Origin: Medicago truncatula
Taxonomy: Eukaryota > Streptophyta > Magnoliopsida > Fabales > Fabaceae
Assembly (NCBI RefSeq): GCF_003473485.1
Contig: NC_053045.1
Coordinates: 51,316,494-51,380,493, forward strand
DNA: 64,000 bases
Reading direction: 5' to 3'
Part shown: positions 12,271 through 58,187 of the stretch, in pieces
How positions within the stretch are numbered: position 1 is the first letter of the stretch
How the letters are laid out: the number at the start of each line of letters is the position of its first letter
Made by a program: the position numbers and the translations under genes
Notes under the pieces: model-generated
The model's input: the letters and a program-made list of their open reading frames with translations, nothing else
Told to the model about the DNA's origin: nothing
Databases searched by the model: none

Positions 12271-14473
12271 TTAAAATAAAAATGATATTGGTTTGAGTTG
12301 AAGTGGTTCTTTCTTTGTAAGAGCCATTCCAAATATCTCACTCATATCTATATCTTGTTCACCTTCATTTGTTTCAGGTAGTTTCCAATCGAACCAATAA
12401 AGAAGGTTAGCAATCACATATTCAACAACAGCTGTTGCAAAATTATATCCAGGACACCCCCTTCTCCCAAAACCAAATGGGATAAACTGAAAATGTTGAC
12501 CTTTAAAATCAACTTGGTTATGTTCAAACCTCTCTGGCTTGAACTCTTCAGGGTTTTCCCAATATTTAGGGTCTCTTTGTATTGTCCATGCATTAAAATA
12601 TACCGTTGTTTTTGCAGGAATGTCGTATCCTTTTAGTTTCACGCTAGATATTGTTTCTCGAGGAACCAAAAGAGGAAGAGATGGATGTAATCTCATAGTT
12701 TCTTTCACTACACACTTTAAATAATGCATTTGATTGATGTCATTTTCTTCTACTTTTGATTTATTGCCTACAACTCTTCTTACTTCTTCTTGTGCTTTCT
12801 TCATTATGGTAGGATGTTTCATGAGCTCTGAAACTGCCCATTCTAATGTTGTTGCGGTTGTGTCCGTTCCACCCACAAACATGTTCTAAAAATAGTGAAG
12901 AATTAATTTTTACTTTGATGAAACATTTTAATGCATGATTGAACCCCTTGCAAAGGGATGAAATAAAATTATTAAAGGTAGTAATAAATACATCTATAAT
13001 CTGCTAACCATGTAATATATCATTTGGAAAACTCAATAGACATATTATAGGATAACAAAGTTGCATAAGGATAAATATGATAGATAGAGTAGAGATTTAT
13101 GTAAGGTCTTGTCTTATCCTATATCACGTTTTTAATCTACACCTAATAATTAAAAAAATTAGATAGCATGTATTATTCTTCTTCTTTTAATAATATATAT
13201 ATTCTAACATATTCAAGAGATGTCAGTTTAATGGTAACAAAATACAGTGTAACCTCAAACAACAAAGTTTAAATTCCACACGATACAATTTTAATTAAAA
13301 ATGGTTTTTAGTGTCATAGTTTATTTTTGTAGATCGACAAAATAACAACAGTCATCGAAAATTGTCACACATAAATTAAGGAGTTGGGATTGATTCTTAC
13401 CCTGATCATGACGTTTGACGTAACAATTTCGATATATTTAAGACTTGTGAACTCGTTAGTCTCATAGTTATTATATATATATATATATATATGCGTGTGT
13501 GGAAAAAAAATTAAGAAGATAAAAGAGAGAAAAGTACCCCTAGAATCCCTTTGATATCATTATTGGAGAGCCGAAAGCCAAGCATGCCATCATCCTTTTG
13601 GAGTTGAAGGAGAATATCAATGAACCCTTTATTCTTGATTTCATCATTTCCTGTCTTTTTTATTTGCAAACGCTCTTCAATCACCTCATCAAACAAACCA
13701 TCAATTGCTCGAAAAGTGTCATTAATTTTTCCAATTTTTCCACTAAGAACATCAATCCAACCAAACAAAAGGAAGTAATCTCCAACAACAAATTCTGAAA
13801 GATGATGCATGACTTTCCTTGCTATTTCTTTTACCCTATTGTCACTATCTCCTCCATATTTCCTTCCAAGAGAGCATGCACAAATAATATTGTTTGTAGT
13901 TTCAGTAAGCAACTTACTTAAATTCACACATGCATCATTTGAGCTAGCTTCACGTAGTTTACTCACCAATTCCTCAACTACTTCTTTTCTAATTTGATGA
14001 AATGATTGTACACTTTTCATGCTCAAAAGTTCTAGGACACATATTTTTCTTTTTTGTCTCCAATTTTCTCCATAATGTGTAAAACCAACATCCGTTCCTC
14101 CATAAAATATGATTTTTGAAGCTATAGTTTGGGCTCGGTTCGAAAAAGCTAGATCATGGTTATTCATGATTTCCATGGCTATATCTGCTGATGAAATCAC
14201 TAAAGTTTGTCTTTGTCCTAATTGCAATAACATTATGTTTCCATATTTGTGTGATAGGTTTCGAAGAGAACGGTATGGAAGTGTGCCTAGCTGATGAAGA
14301 TTACCGATGATCGGAAGTTTCGGTGGAGACGGAGGCTGATTTATATTGGTTTTGGATTTTCTAATTGCAAACTTAAACACAATCAGCACACTTACTAGGA
14401 AGAAAAGAGATAGAGAAAAGGGTGAAGAAAGAGCTCCTTTAATTTGTTCATGTGACCATATTTTGAGAACCAT
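12271..14473 (-). CDS. Cytochrome P450 monooxygenase, CYP71 clan (A-type)
   Basis: A heme-thiolate monooxygenase that would act at the ER membrane and use NADPH-P450 reductase; the substrate cannot be told from sequence. Exon 1 is 14473-13538 and exon 2 is 12885-12271, with a 652-bp phase-0 intron (GT at 13537, AG at 12887-12886), giving 516 residues, normal for the family. Visible parts: signal anchor at about residues 15-36, the proline hinge PPSPPKLPIIGN at 47-58, I-helix GGTDTT at 317-322, K-helix ETMR at 374-377, PERF at 429-432 and heme loop FGFGRRGCPG with Cys456. The intron sits just before the I-helix motif, as in many A-type P450s. An upstream in-frame GTG is not the start; the ATG at 14473 aligns with the pseudogene start. 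The substrate-recognition regions are intact, so the gene looks functional. Confidence 0.93.
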
Positions 14474-14512
14474 TGTTTGTCCAAACACATCTTGGAGTGA
14501 GAGTCACACACT

Positions 14513-19878: not shown

Positions 19879-20310
19879 GGTGACATCTTTAGAGGAGTTT
19901 TTACAATTTTCATTAATCCAAGGATGTATCCGACACGAATGTCCCGAGTATACTCGAAGAAAACGAATTGTGACTATGTTAGGTCTTGGGTGCATTGCAA
20001 CTTTCCTATAAGAGTATAATGGTGGAACCTCTAAAAACGCAATAATAGATGGTGGGTATAGAAAAAGGGAAGGAAAAAAAGGTACACTTTGTGAGGTAAG
20101 TTTTCTCGTGATCCATCACCTTCCCCTTTTGGGCCTAACATTGATTCCATGACTTTTCAGCAAAAGTACTTTTTCTTATTCTCAACCCCACTCTTTAACA
20201 CTTATCATTATTTTGTTCCTATAATAATTAATAATAACAATATTTATTACAAGTCCTTCTTTCTCTATTTTCGCTCCATTTCAACTCATTTTTGCACCAG
20301 TTTTACCACC
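19879..20310. promoter_or_regulatory. Promoter and leader region of the quinolinate synthase gene
   Basis: This 430-bp gap between the MITE and the start codon must hold the promoter. An in-frame upstream ATG at 20149 exists, but the sequence after it is very AT-rich with no transit-peptide character. I see no clear TATA box. Confidence 0.35.
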
Positions 20311-23300
20311 ATGGCTACAACTACTCTATTTCCACTCTCCATCAACCCAAACCATGTTCTTAAACCAAAACGTTTCATTCTTCAACCAAACCAACCTCTA
20401 TTCAAATCTCTCAAATCCAAAACCTCCATTTCCTGCTCCGCTGTTGCTTTTCCAAAAACCACCAACCCTGTCGCTCCTTTGAAACTCCTCGGTCTTGCGG
20501 AGGAGTTTCGATCATTACAGGAGCCAGCAGACCGAATGAAGCGGCTACTACACTACGCAGAGCTAACACCACCGATGGAGGAGACAGCGCGTGTTGACAG
20601 GAACCGAGTCATGGGGTGTACGGCTAGAGTGTGGGTGGAGGTGAAGATCGACGGTGAAGGGAAGGTGAGATTAACGGCGGATAGTGATTCGGAGATCACG
20701 AAAGGTTTTTGTGCGTGTTTGGTTTGGGTGCTTGATGGGTTGGAACCGGAAGAGGTTGTGAAAGTGAGTACTGAGGATTTGGTTGGTCTTAATGTTGGTT
20801 TACCAGGAACTGGTCGTTCTAGGGTGAATACGTGGCATAATGTTCTTGTTACTATGCAAAAAAAGACGAAACAATTGGTTGCTGAGAGAGAAGGGAAGCT
20901 GAAGTTTGAGCCTTTTCCGTCTTTGATTGTTACTGATGATGGTGTTGTTCCTAAGGGTAGTTATGCTGAAGCCCAGGTTATTACTGTCTTTTATTCGGTG
21001 AAAGTTTCATAACGTTTGAAGCACATACAAAGGACACAAGACACGACATCGATGCACCGACACCGATAATAATTTAAGAAAATGACACAGTTTAATATGA
21101 TCATATGTGTTGGTGTCGTGTCGGTGTCAGACACAATATGTAACCGACACCGACATACGTCTAATCTAACAAATATATATATGCTTTATTGGTTATATCT
21201 AAGAATATCGACATTTACAAGTTAAACCTGACCTAATCGACTAGGAGAATCCTTTTGGTACTTAGAGTCTCTATTGGCAAAATTATTTTAAGATTTAAAT
21301 TCATTACAAAGTAATTAAATTTAAAAATTAAACATGTATTAGGTCACCAAAACTTCAAACTCTAGGATTCGGAAGTTTGGTGGTGTTCTATTATTGTTAT
21401 CATTTGGGAAAGTCTTACTAACAAGTGCACGATATATGTTAAAAGACTAAAATATGGTTTTAGTCCCTGCAAATATGTTTCGTTTTGGTTTTAGTCCCTG
21501 TAAAAAAAAAATTGTTTTTGGTCCCTGCAAATTTTTTTGTTTTTTAAAATAGTCGTTGACCCCATTTTTATGATGATTTGCATACGTGGCACATAATGAA
21601 TGAACCCATTTTTGTAGTTTTTGGTCTCTGCAAAATATTTTGTTTTTTAAAAAGGTTCCTAACAAAAAAAATTGCAGGGATCAAAAACAATTTTTTTTTT
21701 ACAGGAACTAAAACCAAAACGAAACATATTTGCCGGAATTAAAACCATATTTTAGCCATATTAAAATAACAAAATTAATTACAAGAATGTTTGTATCTCA
21801 AAAAAAATAAAATTACAAGAATGTTTTATTTATATTGTTGTTGGTCTAGTGATTAACACATACATGAAGGAGAGTGTGGAGGCCCGAGATCAAACAAGGG
21901 CCAAATACAGGAATGTTGTTTTGGAAAAAAAACAAATCTTTAATTGTCGATGAATACACCATTGTGAAGACCGAAGACTACTTTTATTTTTGTTTTATTC
22001 TTTAGCCTATGCTATGAGGTCACTTGTTAGCTTAGGATATTAGTGGTGGGTTGTTTGTTTGTGGCGGCTATAAGTCACTTTATATAGAATCTTTCTTAAA
22101 AAGGGAAATATTAGTGGTGTCCCTTTCTGTTACACCTTGCAAGAATTTGATGCTTATTTATTTAAATTAAAAAAAAAAAAAAAATCTGATGCTTATTTTT
22201 AACAATACTTTCCAGTGTTTTAACAAATTAAGACTTTGTCCTGTTATAGTAGAGATAGGTGATTTTTCTGTTTTTATCATGATTGTGAGTGCTTACTTTG
22301 TAGAGGCATATACTTGGCACATTCCTAATGGTCCTTTTACTTCAATATTTTGCACACACAAATTTTGTATTGAAAGTTCCACTATATCTAAAGCCAAGGC
22401 ATATTTGGTGGGATCCAGTTTGTTGAGAAGTGGCATATTGCATGAGTGGTCCTCACTTTACTTTTCAATTTTGTAGGATACTAGGATGAGTTAGACCAAA
22501 CTCAAAACTCAAACTTTCTAAGGTATTATTTGAGCCTATCTAAAATCTGTTGGGTTATCTGTTGTCTGTCACGCTCGAGGTGTCCACATAATTTGTGGGG
22601 AGTATGTTAAAAAATCTCTCATGATATGCATACATACATCTTGAAAAATGTGTTTATGGGTGGTGGCTAGTCTTATCTCCTCACCTTATAAGTCAATTTT
22701 GTACGATTGAGTTAGACTTCATCCAAATTCTAAGATAGTTTAAGCATTTCTTTTTTCCATACTTACACACAAAAGACAATGATCCCATTATATTAATCAA
22801 GGATGATAAAGAAATGGGTAGTAGTATTTATTAACGTTGCAGATAGTAGATTAGTAGTAACATTTTTCTGTATTTATATTTAGACGAACTTAAATTTAGA
22901 AAAATATGTCTGTGTTTTTTTATTTTACTTTATTTATGCAAGTAGTTTTTTTACTTCAAAACAAAGTTTACTTCACATCTTGATGAATGGAATGGATCAT
23001 GAACATGACAAGAAATCTCATAATTTCATGGAATCTGAACCTGAAAGTATTAAACTTCTAATTTCTGTCTAGCTTTCCTGTAGGCAAAATACTTGTTCCC
23101 TGATGAGTTAAAAGTTGGTGAACTAGTCAATGTGCTGAAGGAGAAGAAAATTGGTGTTGTTGCACATTTTTACATGGATCCTGAAGTCCAAGGCATTTTA
23201 ACAGCTGCTCAGAAGCAGTGGCCTCATATCCATATATCTGATTCACTGGTCATGGCAGATTCAGCAGTCGAAATGGCAAAAGCTGGATGCAAATTCATAA

Positions 23301-25533
23301 CAGTGCTGGGTGTGGACTTCATGTCGGAAAATGTGCGCGCCATCCTTGATCAAGCTGGTTTTAACGAGGTATGTCTTTCTCATACCTGTCCTTTCGCAAA
23401 AAATATGATGGCATGTGGAGGCCTGTCTTGAAGACACATGCTAATGTATCTTGTATGAAGCATGTCATACCTTCTGTAATACACTAGATTAGCAGAATTT
23501 GGTATTTGTGATATTTGTTAATCCTTGGTTGTTAATTTTCTTCTGATGATTATTTGCAGGTTGACGTGTATAGAATGTCGGATGAGCTTATTGGATGTTC
23601 TCTGGCTGATGCTGCAGCTACCTCTACTTATATGGAGTATCTTGAGCCAGCTTCTAAGTCTACTTCTTTGCATGTCATATACATTAACACTAAGTTAGAG
23701 ACAAAGGCATATGCACATGAGCTTGTGCCGACAATAACCTGTACTTCATCAAATGTTATCCAGACTATTCTACAAGTTAGTTAGATGCAAACTTTTCTGT
23801 ATTCCTCTTTGTCCTTGTATTTGTCGTATGAGTACATCACGCGATGACCGCAACAAAGCTAGTTTTAGTGCTTCTTTCTTAAAATGATATATTTATCTCC
23901 TTTTATGCAGGCATTTGCTCAAGTGCCTGATTTGAGCATATGGTATGGGCCTGATTCTTACATGGGGGCAAATATCGTAGAATTGTTCCAACAGATGACA
24001 GTAATGACCGACGAAGAGGTTGCTGCGATACATCCTGAGCACAATGTAGACTCTATTAAATCATTACTACCACGACTCCACTATTTTCAGGTAAGGTCTT
24101 TAAGATGTTTTAAAAAGCAAATGAAGAACTTAGAATTCACATTATTTGCAATCCGATGTGCTGCATTTATGTGGTTTTCTTGTATTCACCATTTTGGGAT
24201 GCTAGTTTGGTGTGAATCCATTTTTCCTATTATTTTTTCTACATGAAGACCATTTTATTCAATGCATAGTGTTTCAAGAGTTAGCTTCTCAATATGTCAT
24301 TGTTATATGCTCCTTTTGGTGCCAGGATGGATCATGCATTGTTCATCATCTTTTTGGCAATGAAGTTGTGGAGAAGATAAAAGAAATGTATTGTGATGCA
24401 TTCCTTACTGCCCATCTTGAGGTACCTGGAGAGATGTTTTCATTGGCAATGGAAGCAAAGAGAAGGGGGATGGGAGTAGTAGGCTCCACCTCGAATATTT
24501 TGGACTTCATAAAAGACAGGGTTCAAGAATCGTTGGACAGAAACATCGATGATCATCTCCAATTTGTTTTAGGAACAGAATCTGGGATGATTACTGCAAT
24601 TGTCGCAGCAGTTCGAAGTTTGTTAGAGCCTGCAAAGTCCTCTTCTCAAGGAGCAAAAGTTACTGTTGAAATAGTTTTTCCAGTTTCGTCAGAGTCAATT
24701 TCGACAACAACCCCGAGTCTAAATCCAGTTGAAGTCGGTGATATCATACTTCATGTTGTACCAGGAGTAGCTAGCGGGGAGGGTTGTTCCATTCATGGTG
24801 GCTGTGCTTCTTGTCCATACATGAAGGTAGGTTTTGACATTCGGTTTAGATATAGTTAGCTAAATTTATAATCAACTTAGGTCAGTTTGGATTCACTTAT
24901 TTGAACATATCTACTAGTAATTCACTTGTGAGACTATTTGAAAGAGCTTATAACATGTCCATACGATGTTTTCAACATATTTCCATAAGCTCTTGGATAG
25001 CTTATGAAATCAGTTTATAGCTTATATAAAAACAGTTTGACTGTATTTTATCTTTTGTTATAAAAATACCTTATGTTTAAACACTTATATGGTAAATGCT
25101 TATGCTATAATCGTTTACTTAAATTGTTTATCCAAATTCCAAACGGGCCTTTAATTTGCTCAGCAATAGAGCGGCAAGATCTTGATCTACCGTTGGACTA
25201 ATGTTGTTATCTGATTGTTTCTCTAACCTTTCTTTCAGATGAATTCTCTTAGCTCACTCCTAACAGTTTGCAGTCACCTACCCGACAAAGAAAATGTGAT
25301 ATCTGCATACAAAGCAGAGCGATTCAAGTTGCAGACTCCAAATGGCCAATCCGTGGCAGACGTAGGATGTGAACCAATTTTGCACATGAGGAACTTTCAG
25401 GTTAGTTTCTTGGTATAATTCTTTTGCATACTATTGACATGAGTCTATTGTACTTTTAATTAACCTTTTGGTACTTGCACAGGCTACTAAAAAGCTTCCT
25501 GAGAAGCTGGTTGATCAGATTCTTCACACCTAA
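20311..25533 (+). CDS. QS: Quinolinate synthase, plastid SufE-NadA fusion
   Basis: Makes quinolinate from iminoaspartate and dihydroxyacetone phosphate with a [4Fe-4S] cluster, for de novo NAD synthesis in plastids. Seven exons: 20311-20976, 23084-23368, 23560-23775, 23911-24090, 24326-24826, 25239-25400 and 25483-25533, all phase 0 with GT-AG borders, giving 686 residues. Residues 1-50 are Ser/Thr-rich and basic, a transit peptide. A SufE domain follows at about 57-190 with its active-site Cys103 (VMGCTARV), then NadA from about 225 to the end. NadA landmarks are VAHFYMDPEVQG, SDSLVMADSAV, GCSLADAA, TCTSSN, WYGPDSYMGAN, the cysteine group GCSIHGGCASCPY and GCEPILHM. I prefer the ATG at 20311 (ccaccATGG) over 20149. 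Exon 1 holds nearly all of the SufE part, so the fusion joint coincides with the 2.1-kb first intron. The family is known in plants as SUFE3/QS. Confidence 0.95.
21445..21757. mobile_element. MITE in quinolinate synthase intron 1, long inverted ends
   Basis: The left arm, g(a)ctaaaatatggtttta with tttcgttttggttttag, repeats in reverse complement at the right end over about 75 bases. The flanks ATGTTAAAA (21436-21444) and ATATTAAAA (21758-21766) are a 9-bp duplication with one mismatch. It has no coding capacity. Confidence 0.85.
22555..22745 (+). mobile_element. LTR/TRIM-like relic in quinolinate synthase intron 1
   Basis: The sequence cctcaccttataagtcaatt and the following gattgagttagac are typical of the end of a common legume LTR/TRIM repeat, and a relative lies at 61145-61250. 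Only a fragment is left and its limits are approximate. Confidence 0.4.
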
Positions 25534-29997: not shown

Positions 29998-30030
29998 GTG
30001 ATCTGCTTGTGGAAATTAGGTACAAACACC

Positions 30031-31017
30031 ATGGGTTCAGAAAGTTGTTTAGAAAATGCACATGATGATCACAAACAACCTCTCTTTTCATTTGGATTAA
30101 TATCTGATGTTCAATATAGTGATATTCCTGATGGACGTTCATTCCTTGGTGTTCCTCGTTACTATAGGCATAGCATTGATGTGTTACAAAGAGCAGTTCA
30201 AAATTGGAACAATCATCAAAAACACAAATTTGTGATAAATTTAGGAGATATTGTTGATGGGTTTTGTCCAAAAGACCAATCTTTTAACACTGTAAAAAAG
30301 ATTGTCGATGAATTTGACAAATTCGATGGACAAGTATATCATTTAATTGGAAATCACTGTCTATACAATCTACCTCGCGAAAAGTTACTTCCGTTGTTGA
30401 AGATTCATAGCCTTGAAGGTTATGCTTACTACGAATTTTCTCCCGTCCCGGAATATAGATTTGTAGTTCTTGATGGATATGATATAAGTGCAATTGGTTG
30501 GCCAAAAGATCATCATAAAACATCGGAGGCAATGAAATTTCTCAAAGAGAAGAATCCAAATGAAGATAAGAATAGTCCAACAGGTTTAGTTGGACTTGAA
30601 AGAAGGTTTCTCATGTTCAATGGAGGTATTGGAAAGAAACAAATAGAATGGTTGAATAATATTCTTCAAGAAGCAACAAAATTGAAACAAAAAGTTGTGG
30701 TTTGTTGTCATTTGTCTCTATATCCTGGTGCATCATCTAAGGAAGCATTGTTGTGGAATTATGATGAAGTGATAAATTTGATACATAGATATGATTGTGT
30801 GAAGGTTTGTTTCTCTGGTCATGATCATAAAGGTGGATATGCTATTGATTCTCATGGTATACATCATAGAGTTCTTGAAGCTGCATTGGAATGTCCTCCT
30901 GGTAGGGATGCATTTGGATATGTTGATGTTTATGATGACAGAATGTTACTTTATGGTACGGACAGAATGCTGAGTACAGACATGTATTTTAATAACCCTA
31001 AAGGGAATTTATTGTGA
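30031..31017 (+). CDS. Mn-dependent ADP-ribose/CDP-alcohol diphosphatase-like metallophosphoesterase
   Basis: A 328-residue single-exon protein of the calcineurin-like metallophosphoesterase fold, ADPRM type. In studied members it hydrolyses ADP-ribose and CDP-alcohols in the cytosol with Mn2+. The metal-binding series is complete: D26-V-Q28 in GLISDVQY, D73 in GDIVDG, N108-H109 in GNH, H227 in CCHLSLYPG and H264/H266 in SGHDHKGGY. The Asp-x-Gln in the first motif is typical of the ADPRM group, where most relatives have Asp-x-His. No signal peptide or membrane segment is visible. The start at 30031 (ccATGG) is preferred over an upstream in-frame non-ATG codon. The downstream sequence is AT-rich with possible poly-A signals. 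Confidence 0.9.
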   Translation: MGSESCLENAHDDHKQPLFSFGLISDVQYSDIPDGRSFLGVPRYYRHSIDVLQRAVQNWNNHQKHKFVINLGDIVDGFCPKDQSFNTVKKIVDEFDKFDGQVYHLIGNHCLYNLPREKLLPLLKIHSLEGYAYYEFSPVPEYRFVVLDGYDISAIGWPKDHHKTSEAMKFLKEKNPNEDKNSPTGLVGLERRFLMFNGGIGKKQIEWLNNILQEATKLKQKVVVCCHLSLYPGASSKEALLWNYDEVINLIHRYDCVKVCFSGHDHKGGYAIDSHGIHHRVLEAALECPPGRDAFGYVDVYDDRMLLYGTDRMLSTDMYFNNPKGNLL

Positions 31018-31840
31018 TTATATATGTTTTATTTTGTCGGATACCTGTTATGTAAATCAATTTTTTCCCTTGCCTTTTGGACAGGATCAAGAGAGATAAA
31101 TATGCAACAAGCATTTACATTGTCAAGAGAATTTTCCTCATAGTATGATTTTTCTTTGGATGCTTTATAGTATGATTTTTGCTTGTGAAAATTTTGATTG
31201 CTCATGTAAAACTAGTAGGATTCTACTTGAGATATTTTTAATAATAATATATAAATGAAATTGAATATTTGATTGCTTTCTACTTGATCTCTCAAGTTCA
31301 ACCTACTTGGCAGGGTGATTCAGCTCTTTGCAAGCTAAAACTTGATCCTGAAACAAATTCTTTGACATTTTTATTATTTTTTTAGTTTTAATTTTAATAC
31401 GTAGAAGTTATCTTAAACGTAGAAGAAACATTTTCCATTTTTAATTTAAGTCTATTGTACATTGTATTATACAAGTAAGAGTAACACTTTTTTAATAGTG
31501 TTCATTACACCTAATAAAATGAGGTGCCGGGCCCTAACCTATAAGTCCATGCTCCCACTCATACTACCCATATATATTGAATTATTTTATCATTCAATAT
31601 ATATCCAATTTCCTCATGTTATAAGTTTTGGTGGAGATCATGCTTCAAATGATGTGAAATTTGATTAACTAATTAATCAACACGGATTTGAAACTTACTT
31701 TGAAAGGTGAAAAACATGATCCTCGAGATTTATTCATGGTTATGAAATAAAGCATAAAACATTAAAAGTTATCTGCAATGAAGTTTCATTTTTTTTTTTT
31801 TGTTACAAGCCACGAAGTTTCCTATGTCACTCAAATTCAA
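31018..31840. other. Intergenic stretch between convergent genes
   Basis: It separates the 3' ends of the diphosphatase-like gene (+) and the first NAR2 gene (-). AT-rich, with a self-complementary stretch at 31563-31610 (catatatattgaatt / attcaatatatat). No gene seen. Confidence 0.45.
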
Positions 31841-32584
31841 TCACTGCTTTGGTGACTTTCCCTTCCTCTTTTCAATATAGAAGAACACACCTAGGGACAC
31901 AACCGAGAAAGCACTGAAGACAACGGAGCAGATATCAAGTGTCGCGTGGCGGCCACTGATTGCATTGATCTCAAACAAGTTGGTACTCTTACCCGCGTTC
32001 GTGGTTTGGCCATAAGCCACTTCCTTATCGTTGGAATCAAATGCATAGGCGCGTACAAAGTACGTTGCCTGAGGCACGTCGCGCTGAATCAACCACTCGA
32101 AGGTTTGGACCGTTTTGTTGGAAGCATTGTATGGCATGGCTAACATTTTGTGTTGGCAAGTTTTGTCCCTAGAGAGTTCATCCTCTGTCTTTCTCCAAGC
32201 GCGGTCTTTTTGGCTTATGGCCGCGTAGCACAACTTCAGCTTTATGGTTTTGTATGAAGAGTCTGTTCCAGCTGGGAAGGTCTTGTTTAGAGCCCATGTC
32301 CCACTGATTTTGTCTACTCCAGATAACAGAACTGCATAGATATTTCATAGCAAAATTGAGTTTATATTTAAGGAGTATTTAACATCATGACTTATATAAA
32401 ATTATAATTAAATACGCCAATACAAAAGGTGCAAAATCTTATTGTTACAATTACCTTGTCCATGCTTAGGGGAAGCTGTGACATCAAGGGTTCTTTTCAA
32501 GGAAGAAAAGAGATCCTTTCCATAACAAAGTTCAGATAAACAGCATAGAAGAAGTGATGCTACCACAAGCTTGTGTGCTGCCAT
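31841..32584 (-). CDS. NAR2: High-affinity nitrate transporter accessory protein, copy 1
   Basis: NAR2/NRT3 proteins pair with NRT2 carriers at the plasma membrane and are needed for high-affinity nitrate uptake. Exon 1 is 32584-32455, exon 2 is 32331-31841, and the intron is 123 bp, phase 1. The product has 206 residues: a signal peptide (about 1-22, ending LCYGKD), an extracellular domain with YPNASNKT-like glycosylation sites (here NKT and NAS), conserved Cys residues in LKLCY and KTCQHKM, a C-terminal membrane helix at about 174-196 and a basic tail KRKGKSPKQ. Gene and protein length match the family. It is one of two tandem copies (the other at 36924-38034). The proteins differ at about five sites: S17A, L19I and L33I, H41Q in exon 1 and Ala to Pro in CYAAISQ. 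Confidence 0.93.
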
Positions 32585-36387: not shown

Positions 36388-36923
36388 AGTTCGCTAATGA
36401 GATTTCCAAGTCAAACTAAGGAGTACAGATAAATATTTAAGAGGAAATTGGCATCCACAAATATATATTCATAACAAACAAATATATATATATATATATA
36501 TTTTTTTATACCAAAATAAGAAATAACTATTATAAATACCTATACCTGTTATGAAATTAACATAAACTATAGCAAGATATTGCAAACTATAGAAGAATGG
36601 AGATAAGAGAGAAAGGGAAAATATAGAATAGAGAATAAAAGAGTATTGCATTATGCTCTTCAAAGATTGTAATTCTTGCAATGTCACCTGACTCCTATTT
36701 ATATGACATAAATGAAGTTAAGAGCAATACCAATGAGTGAAAACCATATAGTCATAGGACCTATAGACTATCCATGAAATATGAAAAACTTAGGGAGCTG
36801 CACATCCACCAAATATTCATAACATTATTGATAATATTATTTAATTAGGCCTGCAGCATATATAAGGCATAATAAAGCATTCAAAACAATCTGCCATGAA
36901 GTTTCCTATGTCACTTAATTCAA
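36388..36923. other. 3' flank of NAR2 copy 2
   Basis: AT-rich, with a (TA)n run at 36482-36500. No gene seen. Sequence next to the stop codon is shared with copy 1. Confidence 0.45.
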
Positions 36924-38034
36924 TCACTGCTTTGGTGACTTTCCCTTCCTTTTTTCAATATAGAAGAACACACCTAGGGACACAACCGAGAAGGCGCTGA
37001 AGACAACGGAGCAGATATCAAGAGTCGCGTGGCGGCCACTGATTGCGTTGATCTCAAACAAGTTGGTACTCTTACCCGCGTTCGTGGTTTGGCCATAAGC
37101 CACTTCCTTATCGTTGGAATCAAATGCATAGGCGCGTACAAAGTACGTTGCCTGAGGTACGTCGCGCTGAATCAACCACTCGAAGGTTTGGACCGTTTTG
37201 TTGGAAGCATTGTATGGCATGGCTAACATTTTGTGTTGGCAAGTTTTGTCCCTAGAGAGTTCATCCTCGGTCTTTCTCCAAGCACGGTCTTTTTGGCTTA
37301 TGGGCGCGTAGCACAATTTCAGCTTTATGGTTTTGTAGGATGAGTCTGTTCCAGCTGGGAAGGTCTTGTTTAGAGCCCATGTTCCACTGATTTTGTCAAC
37401 TCCGGATAACAGAACTGCATAGGTATTTCATACCAAAATTGAGTTTAATCAGCTTGAAGGAGTATTTAACATCATGTAAAAACAAGTATGCAATCACAAT
37501 ATAGGATAAGACATTCATTTATTAAGGTTTTTGATGCGTATTAACTTTGCAAAAATTAAGGTTGCATCAGTCATATTCCTTTGTGATCATTTGTATTATC
37601 AAAAATTGCAACGCGACTGCAGTTTAAAAACCTTATTAAATAACACACTGGACTCTATTAAACTTGGCCAAATTTTCTTGAAAAATGTTCATAGTGGTAT
37701 ATGAGATTATTCAAATTCAAGAAAAGAGGAAGGAACATAATCACATACAAATCAAAATTAAATCAAGTATCTTTTTAAAGAAGAAAAAAAGTGACTTTGT
37801 CTTCAAATTAATTCATCAAAATTAAACATGATCTATGTGATTCATCATATTCTATTTTAACTAGCATAAGTCAATACAAGGTGCAAATTCTTCTTGTTAC
37901 TTACCTTGTCCCTGCTTAGGGGAAGCTGTGACATCAATGGTTCTTTTCAAGGAAGAAAAGAGATCCTTTCCATAACAAATTTCAGCTAAACAGCATAGAA
38001 GAAGTGATGCCACCACAAGCTTGTGTGCTGCCAT
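36924..38034 (-). CDS. NAR2: High-affinity nitrate transporter accessory protein, copy 2
   Basis: Same family and role as copy 1. Exon 1 is 38034-37905 and exon 2 is 37414-36924, 206 residues. The intron is 490 bp, against 123 bp in copy 1, because of extra sequence between about 37480 and 37860. Exon 2 differs from copy 1 at about 15 of 491 bases by eye and only one residue (CYAPISQ in place of CYAAISQ), so selection or gene conversion has kept the coding part close. The signal peptide, conserved Cys residues, C-terminal membrane helix and basic tail are all intact. Both copies have intact splice sites and TATA boxes, so both are likely expressed. Confidence 0.93.
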
Positions 38035-41009: not shown

Positions 41010-41670
41010 ATTACCAAATTATAATGCTTCTTTGGATGAATCAATAGGATATTGTTTGCATTTCCATTCCAATTGAGGAGAACCATTACAGATATTCAAA
41101 CCTATAATATGATTATAAAAAATATTTATCAATAATTAATTTGGTAGCTAATTTCATCTGATGGTTTAATTTTAATCAACTAGTTTCTTAGTTATAAATA
41201 AATTGTCATTACTTTTCAACTATATATACAAACTATATAATAAAAAAAAAAGGTGTATATAAACTAATAAGTTTCTCTCAAAAAAAACAAAAAACTAATA
41301 AGTTGATTCAACCCTGTATAATTTTCAAAAACATTATTTACTCATACTTGATCTTATATAACTCAGATATTTATGGAAAAGAAATATTTTTAAATAAAAT
41401 TTGGAGTTCATCCAAATACAAGTACAATAGTCAATCAATATCAATAACTCCTTATATAATTGGATTATTATATTATTCTTCCCTTCCCATTTGAGCCTAT
41501 GGTGTTCTCTTTGTTTTGTCCATTATGTCTCGGAAAGGGCAAGCAGACAAAGGTGTGTGTGTGTATACGTAGACGTCAGCCATAGCCGTACAGTTACAGA
41601 AAAGGCAACGGAAAGGGGTTAGGAGGATCCCATATTCTGTTGTTATTTGCTACGTTTCCTTCATTTCCTA
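41010..41670. other. Intergenic stretch, no gene seen
   Basis: At 41505-41560 a segment (ttgttttgtcc then ggaaagggcaagca) resembles 33372-33412 upstream of NAR2 copy 1, a possible far edge of the tandem duplication. Nothing else was recognised. Confidence 0.4.
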
Positions 41671-41679
41671 TAATATTAT

Positions 41680-44600
41680 GGTGAAGTCTAACATGAGGGA
41701 GCCAATAGGTCCCTCATGACATGTGGGAGCAAAAGATGCTTTTTTTTTACCTTAGGATTAAAACAATGAATTGATCTACTCCACCTCAGCAAGAGAGCAC
41801 ATGCACCTCTCCACACTCAATCAAAATAGACCACACACTTTCTCTATATGATTTTCTCTCACCTCTATCACTTGCTTATCTTGTCTTCTATTTCTCTCTC
41901 TTAAGTTTCTTCCTCATTTTACAACCCAGCAATCATATGCACACACAGACTGTTATCTCGCCCTCATTCTCACCTCCTTTCCTCAAGATACTTCACTGTT
42001 GCAATTTAGGCATGGGAAGCATTAAACTGGGAACATACATACATTCCTTTGGTTGCTGCAAAAGAATAATGTATCACATCTAAGCGAATAATTATGTATG
42101 AAAATAACTATTTAAGTACAACAATTACCAAAGCAGCTAGGCTGACATTTCTGCACGCTCCACATACAATCCGAGGTTTCTGGAAAAGTGTTATTTTTAA
42201 AGAACCCTAAAAAATAAAACATGTGATTAGCTTGTGGATTTGAAAAATAAGCTTGTGCTTTCTTCGTGCCATTCAATTCCGATCAAAACTCCATAAAAAT
42301 CGTTGAATTTCATTGTGTACCGAGGGAGATATGACCGGGTCGATTAACGGGTCAAAAAACCCGTTTGAGTGTCTACGGGCGAAGAAGATGAGATTAAAAA
42401 AAGATAAAAAAAAAAACAAAAATTTGCCTTGGCAGGAGTTGAACCGACGCCATACAACACATAAATCCCTAAACACTACCAACTGTACTGTGATTACAAT
42501 TGCTAATTTTATAGATTTTTAGTTTATTTATTTACTGTTACTTGTTTTGAATTAGATTTCTTTATCAAGCAAATCTTATATAGATACAAGTCTAAATAAA
42601 ATTTATATGAACACACATACATCAATAATAAAATTTAAAAATGAGACGATATTAAGTGATGTGACTAAACTATTATTTTTTTTAAAAATTTATCATCGCT
42701 GTGTGTGTCCGGATTTGATTATATAAAGCAAATCTTACATGAATTGGGAGGGATATGAAACATCAATGATAAAATTTAAATAGGAGACTATATTAAGTGA
42801 TGTAATCGAATTATCATTTTTTTAAAATTTTATCATTGTTGTGTGTGTCCGGATTTGATTATATAAAGCAAATCTTACATGAATTGGGAGGATATGAAAT
42901 TTGATTATTTTAGCATTAGAGGGAAAGTGAAATTGAGTAATATGATTCTGCTAAAAAAATAATTAAAGTGAAATTAAGTTTTTTTAGTTAATATTCAATT
43001 CATTACATTTATTCAAAAAATAAATGAAAATTCCTTAGGAAGTCTAGTCAACTAGGAAGGACAACTCCCCGGTGACTGAAACGTTTCTAACATTTGAACG
43101 GAAGCATGTTTAGTCGATCCCACCGTTGGATGTGACCTTCACAAAGTTAGAAGGAAGCAGAAACTGAGATTTCTCATATCAGAATCTCGAACACGTGTCT
43201 ACCGGACAAACTATCTCTTCAGAAGCCTAGTAAACTAGGAAGGACAACTCCCCGGTGACTGAAACGTTTCTAACATTTGAACGGAAGCATATTTAGTCGA
43301 TCCCACCGTTGGATGTGACCCTTGCATAGTTACAAGGAAGCCGAAACTGAGATTTCTCATATCAAAATCCCAGACACGTGTCTATCGGACAAACTATCCC
43401 TTCAGAAGCCTAGTAAACTAGGAATGGCAACTCCCCGGTGACTGAAATGTTTCTAACATTTGAACAGAAGCATGTTTAGTCGATCCCACTGTTGGATGTG
43501 ACCTTCACAAAGTTAGAAGGAAGCAGAAACTGAGATTTCTCATATCAGAATCTCAGACACGTGTCTACCGGACAAACTATCCCTTCAGAAGCCTAGTAAA
43601 CTAGGAAGAACACCTCCCCGGTGACTGAAACGTTTCTAACATTTGAACGTAAGCATGTTTAGTCGATCCCACCGTTGGATGTGACCCTCGCGTAGTTAGA
43701 AGGAAGCAGAAACTGAGATTTCTCATATCAGAATCTCAGACACGTGTCTACCGGACAAACTATCCCTTCAGAAGCCTAGTAAACTAAGAAGGACAACTCC
43801 TCGGTGACTGAAACGTTTCTAACATTTGAACGGAAGCATGTTTAGCCGATCCCACCGTTGGATGTGACCCTCGCGTAGTTAGAAGGAAGCAGAAACTGGA
43901 ATTTCTCAGATCAGAATCCCGGACACGTGTCAACCGGACAAACTATCCCTTCAGAAGCCTAGTAAACTAGGAAGGACAACTCCCCGGTGACTGAAACGTT
44001 TCTAACATTTGAACGGAAGCATGTTTAGTCGATCCCACCGTTGGATGTGATCTTCACAAAGTTATAAAGAAGCAGAAACTGGAATTTCTCAGATCGGAAT
44101 CTCGGAGACGTGTCTACCGAACAAACTATCCCTTCAGAAGCATAGTCAACTAGGAAGGACACCTCCCCGATGACCGAAACTCGTCTAACTCTAGAACCAG
44201 AGCATGTTTATTCGATCCCACCGTTGGATGTGACCCTCACAAAGTTAGAAGGAAGCAGAAACTGGAATTTCATATCCCTCTCAATTCATGTAAGATTTGC
44301 TTTATATAATCAAATCCTGACACACACAACAGTGATAAAATTAAAAAATATAATAATAATTTAGTCACCTAAATTTTAATGTACGTGTGTTCATATAAAT
44401 TTTATTTAGACTTGTATCTATCTAAGATTTGCTTTATATAGAAACCTAAAATAAAATGAATTAAACAATTCAAAACTGGTAATAGTAAATAAATAGACTA
44501 AAAATCTAAAATATTAATAATTGTAAGTGCAGTGCAATTGGTTGTGTTTTGGATTTAAGGGTCATAGGGTGCCTGTTCGATTTCTGCAAAGGGATTTTTT

Positions 44601-45414
44601 TTTTTATAATTTTTTTTAATGTCATCTTCTTTAGGTAGTATACTGTAAAACGGGTTTTTTGACCCGCGAATCGACCCGGCTGGATCTCCCATTGTACACA
44701 ATCAAATTCAACGATTTTTATGCACTTTTGATCGGAATTGAATGGCATGAAGAATGCACAGGCTTGTTTTTCAAATCCACAAACTAATCGCATATTTTTG
44801 TTTTTTGTTCTAAAAAAAAAACGCCTTTGAATCATTCTATATCACCGAATTGACAACTTTTCGCTGTAACATCGAATAGTTTCGATTCAGCAACCATGAA
44901 ACCCATATCAATTTGAGAACTAATTTTCTTCAGAAAGAGGATAAGATAAAGATGCAAGTGATATGAGTTTTTGCCATTTTTGCTATAACTCTTTCTGAAA
45001 GATGCAAGTGATAATTTTTTTTGCTATAACTCATGTATCTATGTAAACTAGTTAGTTTGATTTTTGCCATTTTTTTCAATTCACATAAATTGCAACAGTG
45101 AAGTATCTTGAGGAAAGGAGGTGAGAACGAGGGCAAGAGAACAGTCTCTGTATTCATATGATTTATGGGTTGTAAAATGGGAAAGAAACTTAAAGAGAGA
45201 AATAGCAAAGAAGATAAGCAAGTGATAGAGGGGAGAGAAAATCATATGCAGAAAATGTGTGGTCTATTTTGATTGAGTGTGGAGAAGTACATGTGTTCTC
45301 TTGTTGAGGTGGAGCAGATCCAATCCATTTATTTAATCCTAAGGTAAAAAAAAAAGCATCTTTACTTCCTCATGACATGAGGGACCTATTGACTCCCTCA
45401 TGTTAGACTTCACC
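41680..45414. mobile_element. Long-arm Mutator-like element, 3.7 kb, perfect 9-bp target duplication
   Basis: Ends GGTGAAGTCTAACATGAGGG on both sides in inverted orientation; TAATATTAT flanks it at 41671-41679 and 45415-45423. The inverted arms run about 41680-42901 and 44268-45414. The arms include a diverged tRNA-like SINE segment in each (about 42425-42500 and 44520-44595). The left arm has an internal duplication of about 120 bp (cggatttgattatataaagc at about 42710 and 42850). The centre is a 182-bp tandem array. No transposase was seen, so it is non-autonomous. Confidence 0.92.
43035..44268. repeat. Tandem array, seven units of about 182 bp
   Basis: Units start at about 43042, 43224, 43406, 43590, 43772, 43956 and 44138, the last cut to about 130 bp. 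Landmarks in each are ctagt(c/a)aactaggaagg, ccccggtgactgaaacg, cgatcccaccgttggatgtg and cacgtgtctaccgg. Units differ by a few bases. The array is more GC-rich than its surroundings and fills the core of the long-arm element. Confidence 0.95.
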
Positions 45415-48721: not shown

Positions 48722-51700
48722 ATGGAGCGAAGGTTAGGAAGAGAGAACAAAGGGTCACTAAACCTACAAAAAAAGATGGCAGAGACACTACGTAGGGAAG
48801 AACCACCACCTGACCTAACAGATTTCATGAATGACATGTTTTTTGGGACAGTAGACACTCACCAGAAAACCTATGACCTCACTGGTGGGGTTGGTATGAA
48901 CATGGATGATGATGAGGAAGATGATGGTTTCGATGATAGTACTAGAAGTAACAGTGCAAGGTTAACACAAGAATGGTTGCAAGAAGCAAGACTCGTCGTT
49001 GCTTCTTCTCCTTCACGTTGTGAATCTCCCGGACGGCTATTAGGTTCACCTCGCTTTGCATCCCCGTCGAAGTCTTCCCTTCCATCTTCTGATCGAACAG
49101 ATGCTCTTTCTAGGACTAGGTCCGCCAGAAGGTAACATTTTAATTTATTTCATACTACTACTACATAAGGAACATAAACTTCATCAAAACATAAGAAAAT
49201 AAAATTTAATTATTAGTAAATGTTTAGTTTCATGCATAAAGAATCTGGTCGAAATACATATTAGAATCTAGATATTAACCTCTAATATCATTATTTTGCG
49301 AATGTAAGGGTCTTTTTACTAGTTAAAATTAGAAATCAGCTTAATTGTTCATGTCAATATTTCAGTGCACAATTAACTTTTTGTAACCAAGATCAAAGTG
49401 AAAAACCCTTAAACAAGTTTCATTGTATAATCTGATGCAGATACAGAACAGCAGAAGGAATCAGTGATGAGATACTATCAAAAACAGCAAAACACACCCG
49501 CAACAAATCAGACACATTTGCACAACCTTCATCAGATGGGGATGGATCTCCTGCAACTGCAGTACACAAATGGTTTTCCAACATCCTCAAACCCAACAAT
49601 AACAATAACAATAACAATAACAATAGCCCAAGTAACACGCCACCACCTTCTCCAGATTCTCTCCCTCCGCGTCAGCCACATCCTCGAAAATCCCGCTTCC
49701 AATCTTCACCCTCTCCTGCACCTCAGCCACAGGGAATCCAAGCTCCTAATTATAACTCCAGAAGAACTTTCAAGCCTTCTGCACTGTCTGAACCGTTGCC
49801 GGAGAATACAAGCCGGCGAACACCACATAGTGAGGATTCTTTACCTCTGTCACCACCGAGGAACCTCGTGGAATCTGCTCACCGGAGAACGATATCTTCT
49901 TCCACGTGTTCGTGGGAGAAGATAGCTCCGGTGAAGAATTTTGTGAAGGAAGAAGAAGAAACTACGGAGGAGTATAGTCTTAATGGGTTTTTGAAAGAGC
50001 AGAGGAATTTGTTTCAGAGATTCTCGAAGGGAGAGCTTCATACAAATGTCGAAATCAAAATTGTGCTTTCTGGGCATTTAAACAGTTAGTGAAAAACTTG
50101 AATGCATGTTTTCTATCATGCTAAATTTGTCGGAATCACTGTGAGCATTATAATTTTCAAAAGCTACGGTAGCTCACTGTGATTTTGATAAACTCACGTG
50201 AGACCAAACATGGACTGAATTTGTTTTGTTGATTTGATTTTGGGAGTGTTGGAAAGTGTGGAATTTATTTGTATGTGGTGCAGGTACGGCGTCGATGGTG
50301 GCTGCTATTTGCCATGCATGGCTATTGGGTTATAGACAGAAAGAGAATGATGGTGGTGGAAAAGAGAGGACAGTGGTGGTGCCTGTGATGAATGTGAAGA
50401 GAAGTGATATGTGTAAGCTTAAGCAAGCTGCATGGTTGTTTCATCATGCTGGTCTTGATGCTACTTCATTGCTCTTCACTGATGAGGTCACATTTCTTCT
50501 ATTCTTTTCCTTTTTATAGTCAAATGTTAGTTTTTAGAGTAAAGTTTTAATTTGTTCTATAAATAAAATTTGGCGGACCAATTTAGTCTCCGAGAAGAAA
50601 TAATACCAAACTAGTCATTGACATTTTCAAATTGAAGATAAATAAGTCCTCTTGTATAATGAGTTCAGGACTAATTTATCCCCAGTTTGAAAATATCAAG
50701 GACTACTTTAATGTTTTTTTAAGTAATGGATTAAACTAGGCCGTGATAAAATTGTGAGAGACTAAATTGTGTCTTTACTCTAGTTTTTTTGACACACAAT
50801 GACACATAAACATTAGTAATCAATTTAAGAAAATAGCAGTAATTGAATGTAATCACATGTGTTGTTGTACACCAATTCCGTCGGACACGAACATATTTTC
50901 AATCTGAAGTGGACCATATAGGATTTTAGTATGTTATGTTAATAGTCGGAATTTGAATCATATATCTCTTTATCGAACTATTTCAAACTTCTTAGTTCAT
51001 CTCCTTGAGCTTTGCCTTGATGACTTTTTTTGTGTCCATTTGTTATTGCCTTCAAACATGGTTTTGTAATTTGTTGGAATAAAAACAGAAATTATTAACT
51101 CATGATCACTTGAAAAAAATTTATGGACATTGTAAATAATTTAGCAGGCTTATACTTAGTTTGCTGATATAGTGTTGAAGATTGCTTTACAGGTGGACAT
51201 GGAAAGCCTTTTGGTGACTGGTAAACTGAGCGTCCTCATGGTTGGACAAGACGTCTTAAGCGCGACTAACGAGGTTGGTTCAAATGAATAATTGATGAAT
51301 GTGAACATTGGTTTTAAAAATAAGTTTGATGCCAAGGCAATGTGCTACGTGCATTATGATTAATTTTATTGCCCAATTTATTCTCAGGTTGGATCTCAAT
51401 GCACCGTTCTCACAGATAATTACTGTGAGGATGCATATGATCTACTTCAGAACTCTGTGCTGAAGAAACTATTGGTAAATTCATCGCATTCTTAGATAAT
51501 TTCTCGATAAGTACTTTTGGTATAATTCTTAGGATATTACTCTATGCTTATATGTTATTTTTCAGCTTGCTGGTATTCTGCTAGATACACAGAATCTAAA
51601 AGCTTCGGCTGCAGTATCGATGACAAGAGATGCAGAGGCAGTCCAGCTGCTTTTGGTTGGCTTAGCCCCAAACTACAGATATGCTTTATTTGATCAGTGT

Positions 51701-53772
51701 AAGATTTATGTTTCCCCACACATTGAAATTGAGAAGTTATTGATAATATTCAAGTTCAATGTATTAACTTGTTGTGTTTCTTGAAGTGATGCAAGACCAA
51801 CAATCTTCTTCTTTTGTCGAAGCTTTGAACCATAACTATTGGAAGATCCCTGATGAAAGTAAGTATCTATGCCTATAATCTATGCCAATTTCTCCATATA
51901 CATGTTGCGACATAATCCAGTTCATGCTAAGTATAGAATAACAAGTGTCTATTCGGTTTGTGACGGTTAGTGAAGTCTGTCACTTCTGTTATAAATACTC
52001 GATGAAATCATTTCCAATTACAACAATTAGTGTGAGTGGTTTCATTATACTTGGAGATAACTCCAATCTCTAGCAATGCATACTATTAGCTACTTTTATA
52101 AATTGCAAAGGAAAATGATAAAAGGCACGACAAAATTTTCGTGCCTAATTGCACGAATTATTCCTCTCAGTAATTAATCTTGTCAAACAGTAATGCTTTG
52201 GCATTTGGCACTTGATCTCATGATGATTTATGTTTAACTAAGCAGATTCACCAAATAAAACATGAATTCGGAGCATCTTAAGGGTTGTAATGCTTTTATC
52301 GGTGCAACATTGACAGGGAAGATGATGGTGCTACTACCGACAACAATTTTATATTATCTTAGTTTATTATATTATATTTTATATATCTTAGTTCATCTTT
52401 ATCTTATAAATCCATAAACCAACTAGAAGAAGGTCATTCACCAAACAAAGTGTGTGTTTTGAGCATGTCGTGCATGAGTCGCGCATTAAATCTCTCGTAC
52501 CATATAGCAACGTTCAATTGCAAAAATGCAAGAACCATGACCTTGTCTTCAACCACGTTCCTTTAAATCTTTTCTGGTGAAGTTGTTACTGAAATTGCAA
52601 AAGGAAACTTTTTCTGATAAGCTCTGTGTCCTAAAATCTCTTGTGATCCTATACATTTTTGTGTGTTCTGATAGGCTGAGTGGATTAAGGCGAGACTCTT
52701 TCATTTGAAGGAATTTATATGGAAAGTATAAAAAGGTGGATGTGTTCTTATTAATCTTTAAGAACCCTCCGCTGATTAAATTTCTTCGTGGATAACTATT
52801 TCGAGAAGTCAGTCCCCTCAAAGGTAGATTAGTCTATTAGATGGGAAACTCATTTTCTAATAAGCCTCACTTTTTAGGAGTCTCCCCAATGTTGAACTCC
52901 TAACAATGTTTTTTTCTTCCTGATTAGCGAACTCCTAACAATGTACTACTCTACGAGAGCTGATTTCCTTAGGGGCTTTCATTCCGCGACACTTCACTCA
53001 ACATTATCCGCTCAAAATCCTTCATGAGTAGCCATTTTTGAGAAGTCAATCTTCTTAACGAAAACATCAAATGTTACAAGCATAAGCTTAAACAAAGAAT
53101 CAAATCCAAAAGACTAATCTATTAGATAGAATGACTCAATACTCATTGCACATTGGCTTATAAGCCTCCTTTTTTATGTGAGACTGTCCAACGTTGAACT
53201 CCTAACAACCTCCTAGTTTTCAATTGGGAAAACATTAAATCGAACACAGCATTTCATTACCAAGGATTTGTAACTTTATTTTGTTAAAGGAACCAAAGGT
53301 AAATGCATCAAGAACACTACAGAATGTTACTCTATATTATCAAGAAAACAATTTTATGTAGAATTGAACATTATGACATGGTCACAATTTCTTTCCTTTA
53401 TTCTTTGTACTCGCAGGTGACCAAAATAGTGAAGGAAATATGGAGCATAAAGTTCGCGACAGAAAGTCAAGCTCTACATCTGACCGAGAAACTACCAATG
53501 CAAGTTCAAAAACAAATTCCACGGACGCAAAAGGTATGTTTTGAACTTATGATTTGGTTAATAGGTTCCATTTAAAATATTCTTTGTAAGTCTTTGTTAC
53601 CTTGTTTTGCAATTATAAATGTGGTAACACAACACTTATCCTTGCAGTAAAACTTGCTACGCCAATTTTGCAATCTCCTAGTCCAGGAGTATCATCAAAT
53701 GCAGAAAAGGAAGCCTCTCGTGGGAAAAACAAGTTCTTCTTGGCAAGGTGGTTTGGATTTGGTTCAAAATGA
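48722..53772 (+). CDS. Prune-like (DHH/DHHA2-type) protein with degenerate catalytic motifs
   Basis: Nine exons: 48722-49131, 49441-50084, 50284-50486, 51193-51273, 51388-51474, 51566-51698, 51787-51858, 53417-53533 and 53648-53772, all GT-AG and frame-consistent, 623 residues. The N-terminal 330 residues are acidic, then Ser/Pro-rich with a poly-Asn run. The domain at about 335-520 follows the order of animal Prune: VVPVMNVKRSD, LLFTDEVDMESL, then VGS-T, then ILLDTQNL. Prune proteins are exopolyphosphatase/nucleotide phosphodiesterase relatives. Here the DHH triad is V436-GQD-V and the first Asp motif is replaced by HLNSTAS (about 349-355), while D418-E419 and D482 remain. I infer a non-catalytic or altered-activity protein. 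The C-terminus is RWFGFGSK. The start is the ATG at 48722; an upstream GTG is not used. Confidence 0.85.
50536..50780. mobile_element. MITE in intron 3 of the Prune-like gene
   Basis: Ends AGAGTAAAG in inverted orientation, with matching a/taaattt(g/a) arms. The direct repeat TAGTTTTT flanks it at 50528-50535 and 50781-50788. It has no ORF. Confidence 0.8.
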
Positions 53773-56315: not shown

Positions 56316-57254
56316 TCATTCAACCTTCCAAGCATAAAGAAACAAGCAAAACTCTGATGAACCACTTACACTAAATCCCTCCACTGATTCACAATTCCTT
56401 GCTTGAATTGATAATGGAGAAGATGAAGAAGATGAAATAGTAGATGACAAAATTGGCTTAAAAATAAACAAAGCATGTTTCAAACCAGGACTAAATAACC
56501 AATCATGAACATCCCAATAAACTTCAATTCTCATTTTACTAAGATGAACTGATTCATTACCTCTAAACTTCCATTGCAAATGCTTCACATGAATCACCAA
56601 ATGTCCATCAATTCTTATCTCCATCTCTGGCTGAACTGATCCAACAATAACAGAATCGCCACCACCATTTCCTCTATTCTTGCATTCAATAGAAATCTCA
56701 TGCCATTTACCCTTCTCATGAAACTTAGCTCTGGTTGAGAATTTCTTCTTACCAAATATATGCTCTTTCTTTGAAACCAATATAGGATCAATAAGAGCTG
56801 GTCTACAACCTGTTCTTCTATAAGCATCTTTTTTAAGATCACCAAGAAGAAGAACAACCTCTTCATCACAAACAACAGCTACATAGTATTCTGAAGTTGG
56901 TTCTGTTTCTCCGTTGAATTTAGCAGCTTTAAGGTCCCAGAAAATGTCAACAGCTTTGTTTCCATCAACTATAAACCGTTTTGAACCTTGTTTTCTCCAA
57001 AAATACCATGGCTTTAGTTCAACTTTGCAGGTATATTGGGCTTCTCCTTCTGGACCTTCTACTGATATTGATAGTCCATGAAGCAACAAGTTTTTGCACC
57101 ATGTGATGGTTATCAAACGGCAATGATCAGCTACCTTTGTTCTGTATACTGACATGTATACACTCTGACCGGAACGTGTCACACCGCCTCCATGATCATC
57201 GGTTAGCTTATCTGCTGGTGAAAAGCATGTAGGAATACCAATTGAGTCTTGCAT
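56316..57254 (-). CDS. DUF868 family protein
   Basis: A single-exon protein of 312 residues, the usual length for this plant-specific family (PF05910). No biochemical function is established. Family landmarks: an N-terminal Cys/Pro segment, VYRTKVADHCRLITITWCKN, PWYFWRKQGSKRF, VDIFWDLKAAKF, SEYYVAVVCDEEVVLLLGD and a late EVYWDVHDWLFS. The C-terminal third has a Ser run (SSTISSSSSSPLS) before a conserved-looking FCLFLYAWKVE end. No signal peptide or membrane helix. The start at 57254 fits the family. The 250 bases upstream are A-rich and look like leader. Confidence 0.9.
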   Translation of the reverse strand: MQDSIGIPTCFSPADKLTDDHGGGVTRSGQSVYMSVYRTKVADHCRLITITWCKNLLLHGLSISVEGPEGEAQYTCKVELKPWYFWRKQGSKRFIVDGNKAVDIFWDLKAAKFNGETEPTSEYYVAVVCDEEVVLLLGDLKKDAYRRTGCRPALIDPILVSKKEHIFGKKKFSTRAKFHEKGKWHEISIECKNRGNGGGDSVIVGSVQPEMEIRIDGHLVIHVKHLQWKFRGNESVHLSKMRIEVYWDVHDWLFSPGLKHALFIFKPILSSTISSSSSSPLSIQARNCESVEGFSVSGSSEFCLFLYAWKVE

Positions 57255-58187
57255 CGTCGTGATCTTTGATATTGCAGAGAATTACAATCAATATATAATA
57301 AAAAATAAAAAAAAATAAAAAATAAAAATTGATGGAGCGACTCAGGTTGCGAAAACAGCCTAATTTTTTAAAAATTAGGTAAAGATACTGTAGAGAATTG
57401 CGATCAAGTGTGACTGATATCTTAATCGCGGTTGAATATACACGGAGATATCAAAAACCTTGATGTCGCGACTCTGGTTGCCATAGAGGCTAGAGTTGAA
57501 TAGGGCAATATAGTAGAGATGAGAAGTGGAAAATGAGAGAGGAGAATAGACTTGTTGGGAATTTTAACAAGTACTTGTGAAGAGGGTGAGAGGGTGAGAG
57601 ATCTTAGTCACAAGGTGAATGAATGATAGATGGTGCCAGATGTGATTTTGGAAGCATTATTAAGTAAATAATTAATTGGAATTAAAAACAATAATTTTCC
57701 AAACTGGCATATGGATGGCAGTGAGTGAGAGTGAGTGATAGAACAAATCTTTTTATAATACTACTATGCATTTCTTTATCTAATATCACTCATTTAGTTG
57801 AGACCTATTTTAATATTTTTTTTGTTGGGGGTTAAAATTTACCTTTTTAAGTTGAAACTTTAATCTGTACTAACTTTTTGGAATCCAAGGTTGCTTTATT
57901 TATGTATACTATATTCAAAAGTGGTTACTTCCAGGCAGTTTGATGCAGAGAAGCCATTTTTCATCAGATTTGGTGTATAGATTTTCACAAATTTAGGAAT
58001 CATATTTATTCATAACATCACATGATATGGTCAAAAATAACCGGTCAAAACTGTTAGGGAAAAAATATCAACTGTAGTTGTGAGGGTTAGCTTTCCAATG
58101 CTAGGTGCCATCATATTTTCCTCCTTGTTTGAAAGTATCTTGTTAATTCATTGCATGTGACTTTTCAATTAATGATAACTTCTAATC
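57255..58187. other. Upstream region of the DUF868 gene
   Basis: Contains an A-rich block (57297-57325) and a short near repeat (gagaattgcgatca / gagaattacaatca). No other gene seen. Confidence 0.4.

Follow-up and report, generated by a model that had tools for sequence, protein, structure and literature searches.

A Prune-like gene of Medicago truncatula that probably encodes a pseudoenzyme related to DHH phosphoesterases

Does a plant protein that resembles animal Prune, a DHH-family phosphoesterase that acts as an exopolyphosphatase on short chains, still have the means to act as an enzyme, or does it serve in another role? This question is raised by a gene of Medicago truncatula whose predicted product combines a Prune-like domain with long plant-specific flanks. 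Human Prune has been portrayed as an adaptor protein with multiple domains (PMC8569853). In print, the yeast exopolyphosphatase PPX1 is counted as a family member alongside human Prune (PMC6973038), and its kinship to the Medicago protein follows from this published grouping. In its table of Arabidopsis homologues, that 2019 review has a dash where sequence homologues of yeast PPX1 and human Prune would stand; the proteins it names are only those with DHH or DHHA1 domains in common (PMC6973038). A sunflower gene is listed as 'exopolyphosphatase PRUNE1-like' (PMC11305583), which suggests that automatic annotation already ties plants to Prune; this entry, known by its label alone, is presumably orthologous to the Medicago gene, but the label implies an activity that the residues of the Medicago gene do not support. 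The open-access literature, represented mostly by titles and the beginnings of abstracts, yielded no account of a plant Prune pseudoenzyme or of its degeneration.

The gene lies on the + strand of the window, i.e., the 64,000-nucleotide stretch of contig NC_053045.1 that was analysed, and is complete, running from an ATG at 48722 to a TGA that ends at 53772, exactly the interval given by the initial annotation. Splicing of the window joins nine exons in frame into 1872 nt that encode 623 aa with no internal stop, which rules out a frameshifted or broken gene. All eight introns are GT-AG; intron 3 has a donor (GTCACA) that falls short of a strong consensus, but both frame and homology run on across this junction. 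Exon 1 (48722..49131), with the start codon and the donor AAG/GTAACA, encodes an acidic, Ser/Arg-rich N-terminus (aa 1-137), and exon 2 (49441..50084), recognised by splice sites and composition, encodes a Ser/Pro/Asn-rich linker and the first strand of the DHH-like domain. On the basis of splicing and the alignment to Prune, exon 3 (50284..50486) carries a degenerate motif I (HLNSTAS, split over the exon 2/3 junction) and VPVMNVKRS, exon 4 (51193..51273) carries VDMESL and, at motif II, VGQD where Prune has VDHH, exon 5 (51388..51474) carries VGSQCTVL, and recognisable similarity to Prune stops in exon 7 (51787..51858), at about residue 522. Exon 6 (51566..51698), supported by splicing and by the alignments to 2EB0 and Prune, holds motif IV (ILLDTQNL) including the surviving D482. 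Beyond intron 7 (51859-53416, 1.56 kb), exon 8 (53417..53533) encodes a polar tail in which the profile test described below found no DHHA2 similarity, and exon 9 (53648..53772) encodes a basic, aromatic C-terminus (KNKFFLARWFGFGSK) and the stop codon. In the spliced protein HLNSTAS starts at residue 349, VPVMNVKRS at 384, FTDEVDMESL at 416, VGQDV at 436, and ILLDTQNL at 479, and the motifs and residue numbers reported initially (D418, E419, D482) are thus exact.

Compared with Prune, the plant protein has a 334-residue N-terminal extension. Its linker (aa 138-334) consists of 14.7% S, 12.7% P, and 10.2% N and includes 10 Asn in a row; on a simple residue scale (TOP-IDP, with hand-entered values), the N-terminus is on average disorder-prone, with the exception of residues 31-60.

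Several other features were recognised in the window, whose Pfam matches to cytochrome P450, SufE, NAR2, and the plant family DUF868 mark it as nuclear DNA of a plant. The nearest recognised gene downstream of the Prune-like gene encodes a DUF868 plant protein (56316-57281, - strand, Pfam E 3e-110). Upstream, an element at 41680-45414 has long inverted ends (41668-42008 versus 45425-45086, 90% identical), and contains a 183-bp tandem repeat in 6.8 copies (43039-44276). Its ends, GGTGAAGTC...GACTTCACC when read by eye, lie between the copies of a 9-bp direct repeat (TAATATTAT), an arrangement known from Mutator-like elements. A NAR2-type gene, for a nitrate transporter accessory protein, is present in two copies on the - strand (31809-32389 and 36893-37476) that are 95.7% identical in DNA, with open frames of 167 aa that differ at two positions (Pfam E 7.9e-53 for the first copy). 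A single-exon calcineurin-like phosphoesterase gene is found at 29998-31017 (+ strand, Pfam E 5.2e-13), and two long ORFs at 12271-14503 (- strand) encode a cytochrome P450 (Pfam p450 E 2.9e-70 for the second-exon ORF). Finally, a SufE domain (E 2.9e-28) at 20095-21012 is followed on the + strand by a weak NadA match under the cut-off (E 0.2) at 24206-24859; plant quinolinate synthase is a SufE-NadA fusion, and these two ORFs may be exons of one gene.

The relationship of the central domain to the DHH superfamily was examined by several routes. When residues 335-545 were searched against NCBIfam, all eight matches were family II pyrophosphatases (best E 3.7e-6), while one reversed and two shuffled copies of the same residues, used as controls, gave no match (0/3); the whole protein gave five matches, again to family II pyrophosphatases only (best E 3.2e-5). 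The best score (25.7 bits) is far under the curated cut-offs of these models (335 to 746 bits; 283 for one model) and hence indicates distant homology rather than membership. Pfam-A gave no match for either the whole protein or its domain, and among solved structures the sole match, a weak one, was 2EB0 (E 2.3 with the full-length query, 0.31 with the domain), with no PPX1 chain matched. We also built a profile from seven plasmid-borne pyrophosphatases. A fragment of 2EB0 had matched 23 plasmid records, of which 20 were listed, eight were retrieved, and seven entered the profile; the seven hold at most two near-identical pairs, and the five short ones count as about four, as two of them (L005 and L006) are nearly identical. 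In a two-sequence database, the profile of all seven matched the plant domain with E 5.7e-8 and the reversed domain with 0.18, and a profile of the five short sequences plus a hand-entered human PRUNE1 sequence matched them with E 1.5e-8 and 0.16, respectively. With the plant domain as a single-sequence query, hhalign probabilities against these two profiles were 78 and 81 percent. We conclude from these sequence comparisons that residues 335-545 belong, by homology, to the DHH superfamily, and a DHH-type fold would be expected for them. The distant homology to family II (Mn-dependent) pyrophosphatases extends over aa 390-503 and places D482 opposite the motif IV Asp, but the strings GHxPDxD, VDHN, and DHH that are seen in the seven plasmid pyrophosphatases (L004 has VDFT) are all absent from the plant protein.

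Within this superfamily, the initial annotation had identified the protein as a relative of Prune, and our comparisons bear this out. The human PRUNE1 sequence used was entered by hand rather than fetched from a database; its 453-residue length and all 16 residue numbers compared match those in print (PMC5382943, PMC8569853). Against this hand-entered sequence, blastp aligned residues 342-445, where the plant protein comes closer to Prune, with E 1e-9 (26/104 identical), phmmer added a second collinear stretch (residues 446-522), and the local alignment score was 124, as compared to a mean of 32 (SD 5, maximum 55) for 500 shuffles of the plant domain. Collinearity between the two proteins spans Prune residues 8 to 220 or so, with the VPV-N-KRS, F-DE-D, VGS, and ILLD strings in common, and after the alignment gap the match resumes in the right order (VGS, ILLD). 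By contrast, motifs I to III have been lost from the plant protein, which as predicted also has no DHHA2. The proposal that the domain order follows Prune therefore holds through the DHH half and fails beyond it, since the segment with motif III falls in an alignment gap and no DHHA2 domain is present in the predicted protein.

At motif I, the Prune alignment places N24 opposite G348, D28 opposite S352, and D30 opposite A354; with a shifted gap, D28 and D30 stand opposite H349 and N351 and no Asp is regained, so that the first Asp pair is gone in either placement, as had been suggested. Motif II of Prune (D106-H107-H108) lies opposite G437-Q438-D439, in agreement with the proposed replacement of VDHH by VGQD, while alignment to the pyrophosphatase profile places F404-H405-H406-A407 at this motif, with H405-H406 opposite Asp-His; neither alignment positions an Asp opposite the motif Asp. 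Motif III (D126-H127-R128) is lost in both cases: in the Prune alignment its segment is absent, leaving a gap that falls between exons 4 and 5, and in the pyrophosphatase profile V427-T428-G429 stand in its place. Profiles made of pyrophosphatases only align residues 400-447 without a deletion, and what became of motifs II and III thus depends in detail on the alignment; a global MAFFT alignment put the VGQD region elsewhere than the pairwise alignment did, and pairwise and profile alignments were used. At motif IV, D179 of Prune is opposite D482, the sole surviving ligand position. D418 and E419, which had been listed with D482 as remaining acidic positions, are opposite Prune D87 and E88 (E88 being a conserved Glu); neither is known to us to bind metal, and of these residues only D482 is counted as a ligand position. 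The five short pyrophosphatases and the hand-entered Prune share 27 invariant columns, 21 of them at Prune positions up to 230. With the start Met excluded, the plant protein keeps one of the six columns that we take to be catalytic from family knowledge and published mutants, as compared to 8 of the 14 others. Judged from the alignments, degeneration therefore exceeds the initial account, in that motif III and DHHA2 are missing as well.

Published mutants of human Prune indicate how these losses can be read. In the data reported in PMC8569853, N24H, D28A, D179A, and R348A abolished exopolyphosphatase activity, while D106A, H107N, and H108N reduced it to a level that was still measurable; D106N and R128Q abolished activity in another study cited there. 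In addition, D30N and R297W exceeded wild-type activity with tetraphosphate as substrate, and tubulin binding was retained in D30N (PMC5382943). Loss of VDHH alone is thus no proof of inactivity, and, as D30N illustrates, loss of a single ligand need not kill activity; the missing equivalents of D28 and R348 are a stronger argument. As equivalents of D28 and R348 and motif III are all lost, the plant protein is very likely inactive, i.e., predicted to be unable to hydrolyse polyphosphate or cyclic nucleotides.

The lack of a DHHA2 domain, or of one of the motifs, could also reflect an incomplete gene model with exons that were not joined, and intron 7 in particular is long. A DHHA2-half profile gave no match to the spliced protein, which the DHH-half profile matched at 1.3e-7, and found nothing in the six frames of the window (best E 1.1); this six-frame search is weak evidence, since the DHH-half profile likewise missed the gene's own, known DHH exons (best E 0.55). 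tblastn with residues 205-453 of the hand-entered Prune found nothing below E 0.43 in the whole window and nothing in the gene at E 10, whereas the full-length Prune sequence reached exon 3 at E 0.011. A hidden DHHA2 in intron 7 was thus found neither by tblastn nor by the insensitive six-frame profile, and we consider an incomplete model unlikely.

Other explanations accept the gene model and read the domain differently. The protein could still be an enzyme if a new metal site had formed from migrated residues among the Asp and His still present in the domain (H349, H405, H406, D418, D421, D439, and D482); H405 and H406 face the motif II Asp and His in the pyrophosphatase-profile alignment, H349 is within GHLN, which resembles the pyrophosphatase GHxNP string, and D482 is retained. 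Such a site is nevertheless decidedly unlikely given that motif III is without Asp or His in both alignments, motif I is without an aligned Asp, and the protein is without DHHA2 or an equivalent of R348. It is also very unlikely that the gene is a decaying pseudogene of one genome rather than a maintained pseudoenzyme: its 623 codons are open over nine exons with GT-AG in all eight introns, 8 of 14 non-catalytic invariant columns are retained, and a sunflower gene, known by its label alone, is called PRUNE1-like. Decay would fit the many changes at family-invariant positions, and two collections yielded no orthologue that could show selection; searches for relatives of the plant domain matched its pattern in 39 stretches of genome contigs and two of viral contigs, none of which was confirmed, and a search of viral contigs with the 2EB0 fragment gave 36 stretches, again with none confirmed. 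The resemblance to DHH proteins could even be spurious and the fold unrelated, as the empty Pfam-A result and the weak PDB match might suggest, but the NCBIfam profiles and the pairwise test against Prune with 500 shuffles are two independent routes that agree, and the Prune match continues in order past the gap; we regard this explanation as extremely improbable.

The explanation that we favour, and that is probably correct, is that the product of this gene is a non-catalytic pseudoenzyme that descends from the Prune/PPX1 branch of DHH phosphoesterases and acts as a binding module. Gene structure, homology, and residue losses are well supported, as read from the DNA, for this one gene in one genome. 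In the proposed pseudoenzyme, residues about 340-522 keep the sequence pattern of the DHH half although motifs I to III, which bind metal in the family, are lost, and the protein as predicted lacks DHHA2, the domain that carries the substrate-binding arginine. A partner could then dock on the surface of the degenerate domain or in its emptied pocket, and regulated docking sites may lie in the polar N-terminus (334 residues) and C-terminus (78 residues). As nearly all catalytic residues are gone, function is probably exerted via partner binding, and a role as binder or regulator appears most likely by analogy with human Prune, which also works as an adaptor (PMC8569853) and thus makes a binding role plausible for the plant protein.

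More tentatively, and with somewhat less than even confidence, we propose that Prune survives in land plants, or in a large clade of them, solely as a pseudoenzyme; the catalytic motifs and DHHA2 would have been lost in a common ancestor, and selection would have retained the DHH shell as an adaptor in signalling, with disordered arms newly added. If this plant-wide reading is true, the Arabidopsis table with a dash for PPX1 and Prune homologues (PMC6973038) missed a real but dead orthologue. If orthologues share the losses described here, 'exopolyphosphatase PRUNE1-like' labels mislead, and such genes ought to be left out when hydrolases are counted in work on polyphosphate and phosphate turnover in plants; these genes would also constitute a natural test of whether the adaptor role of Prune separates from catalysis.
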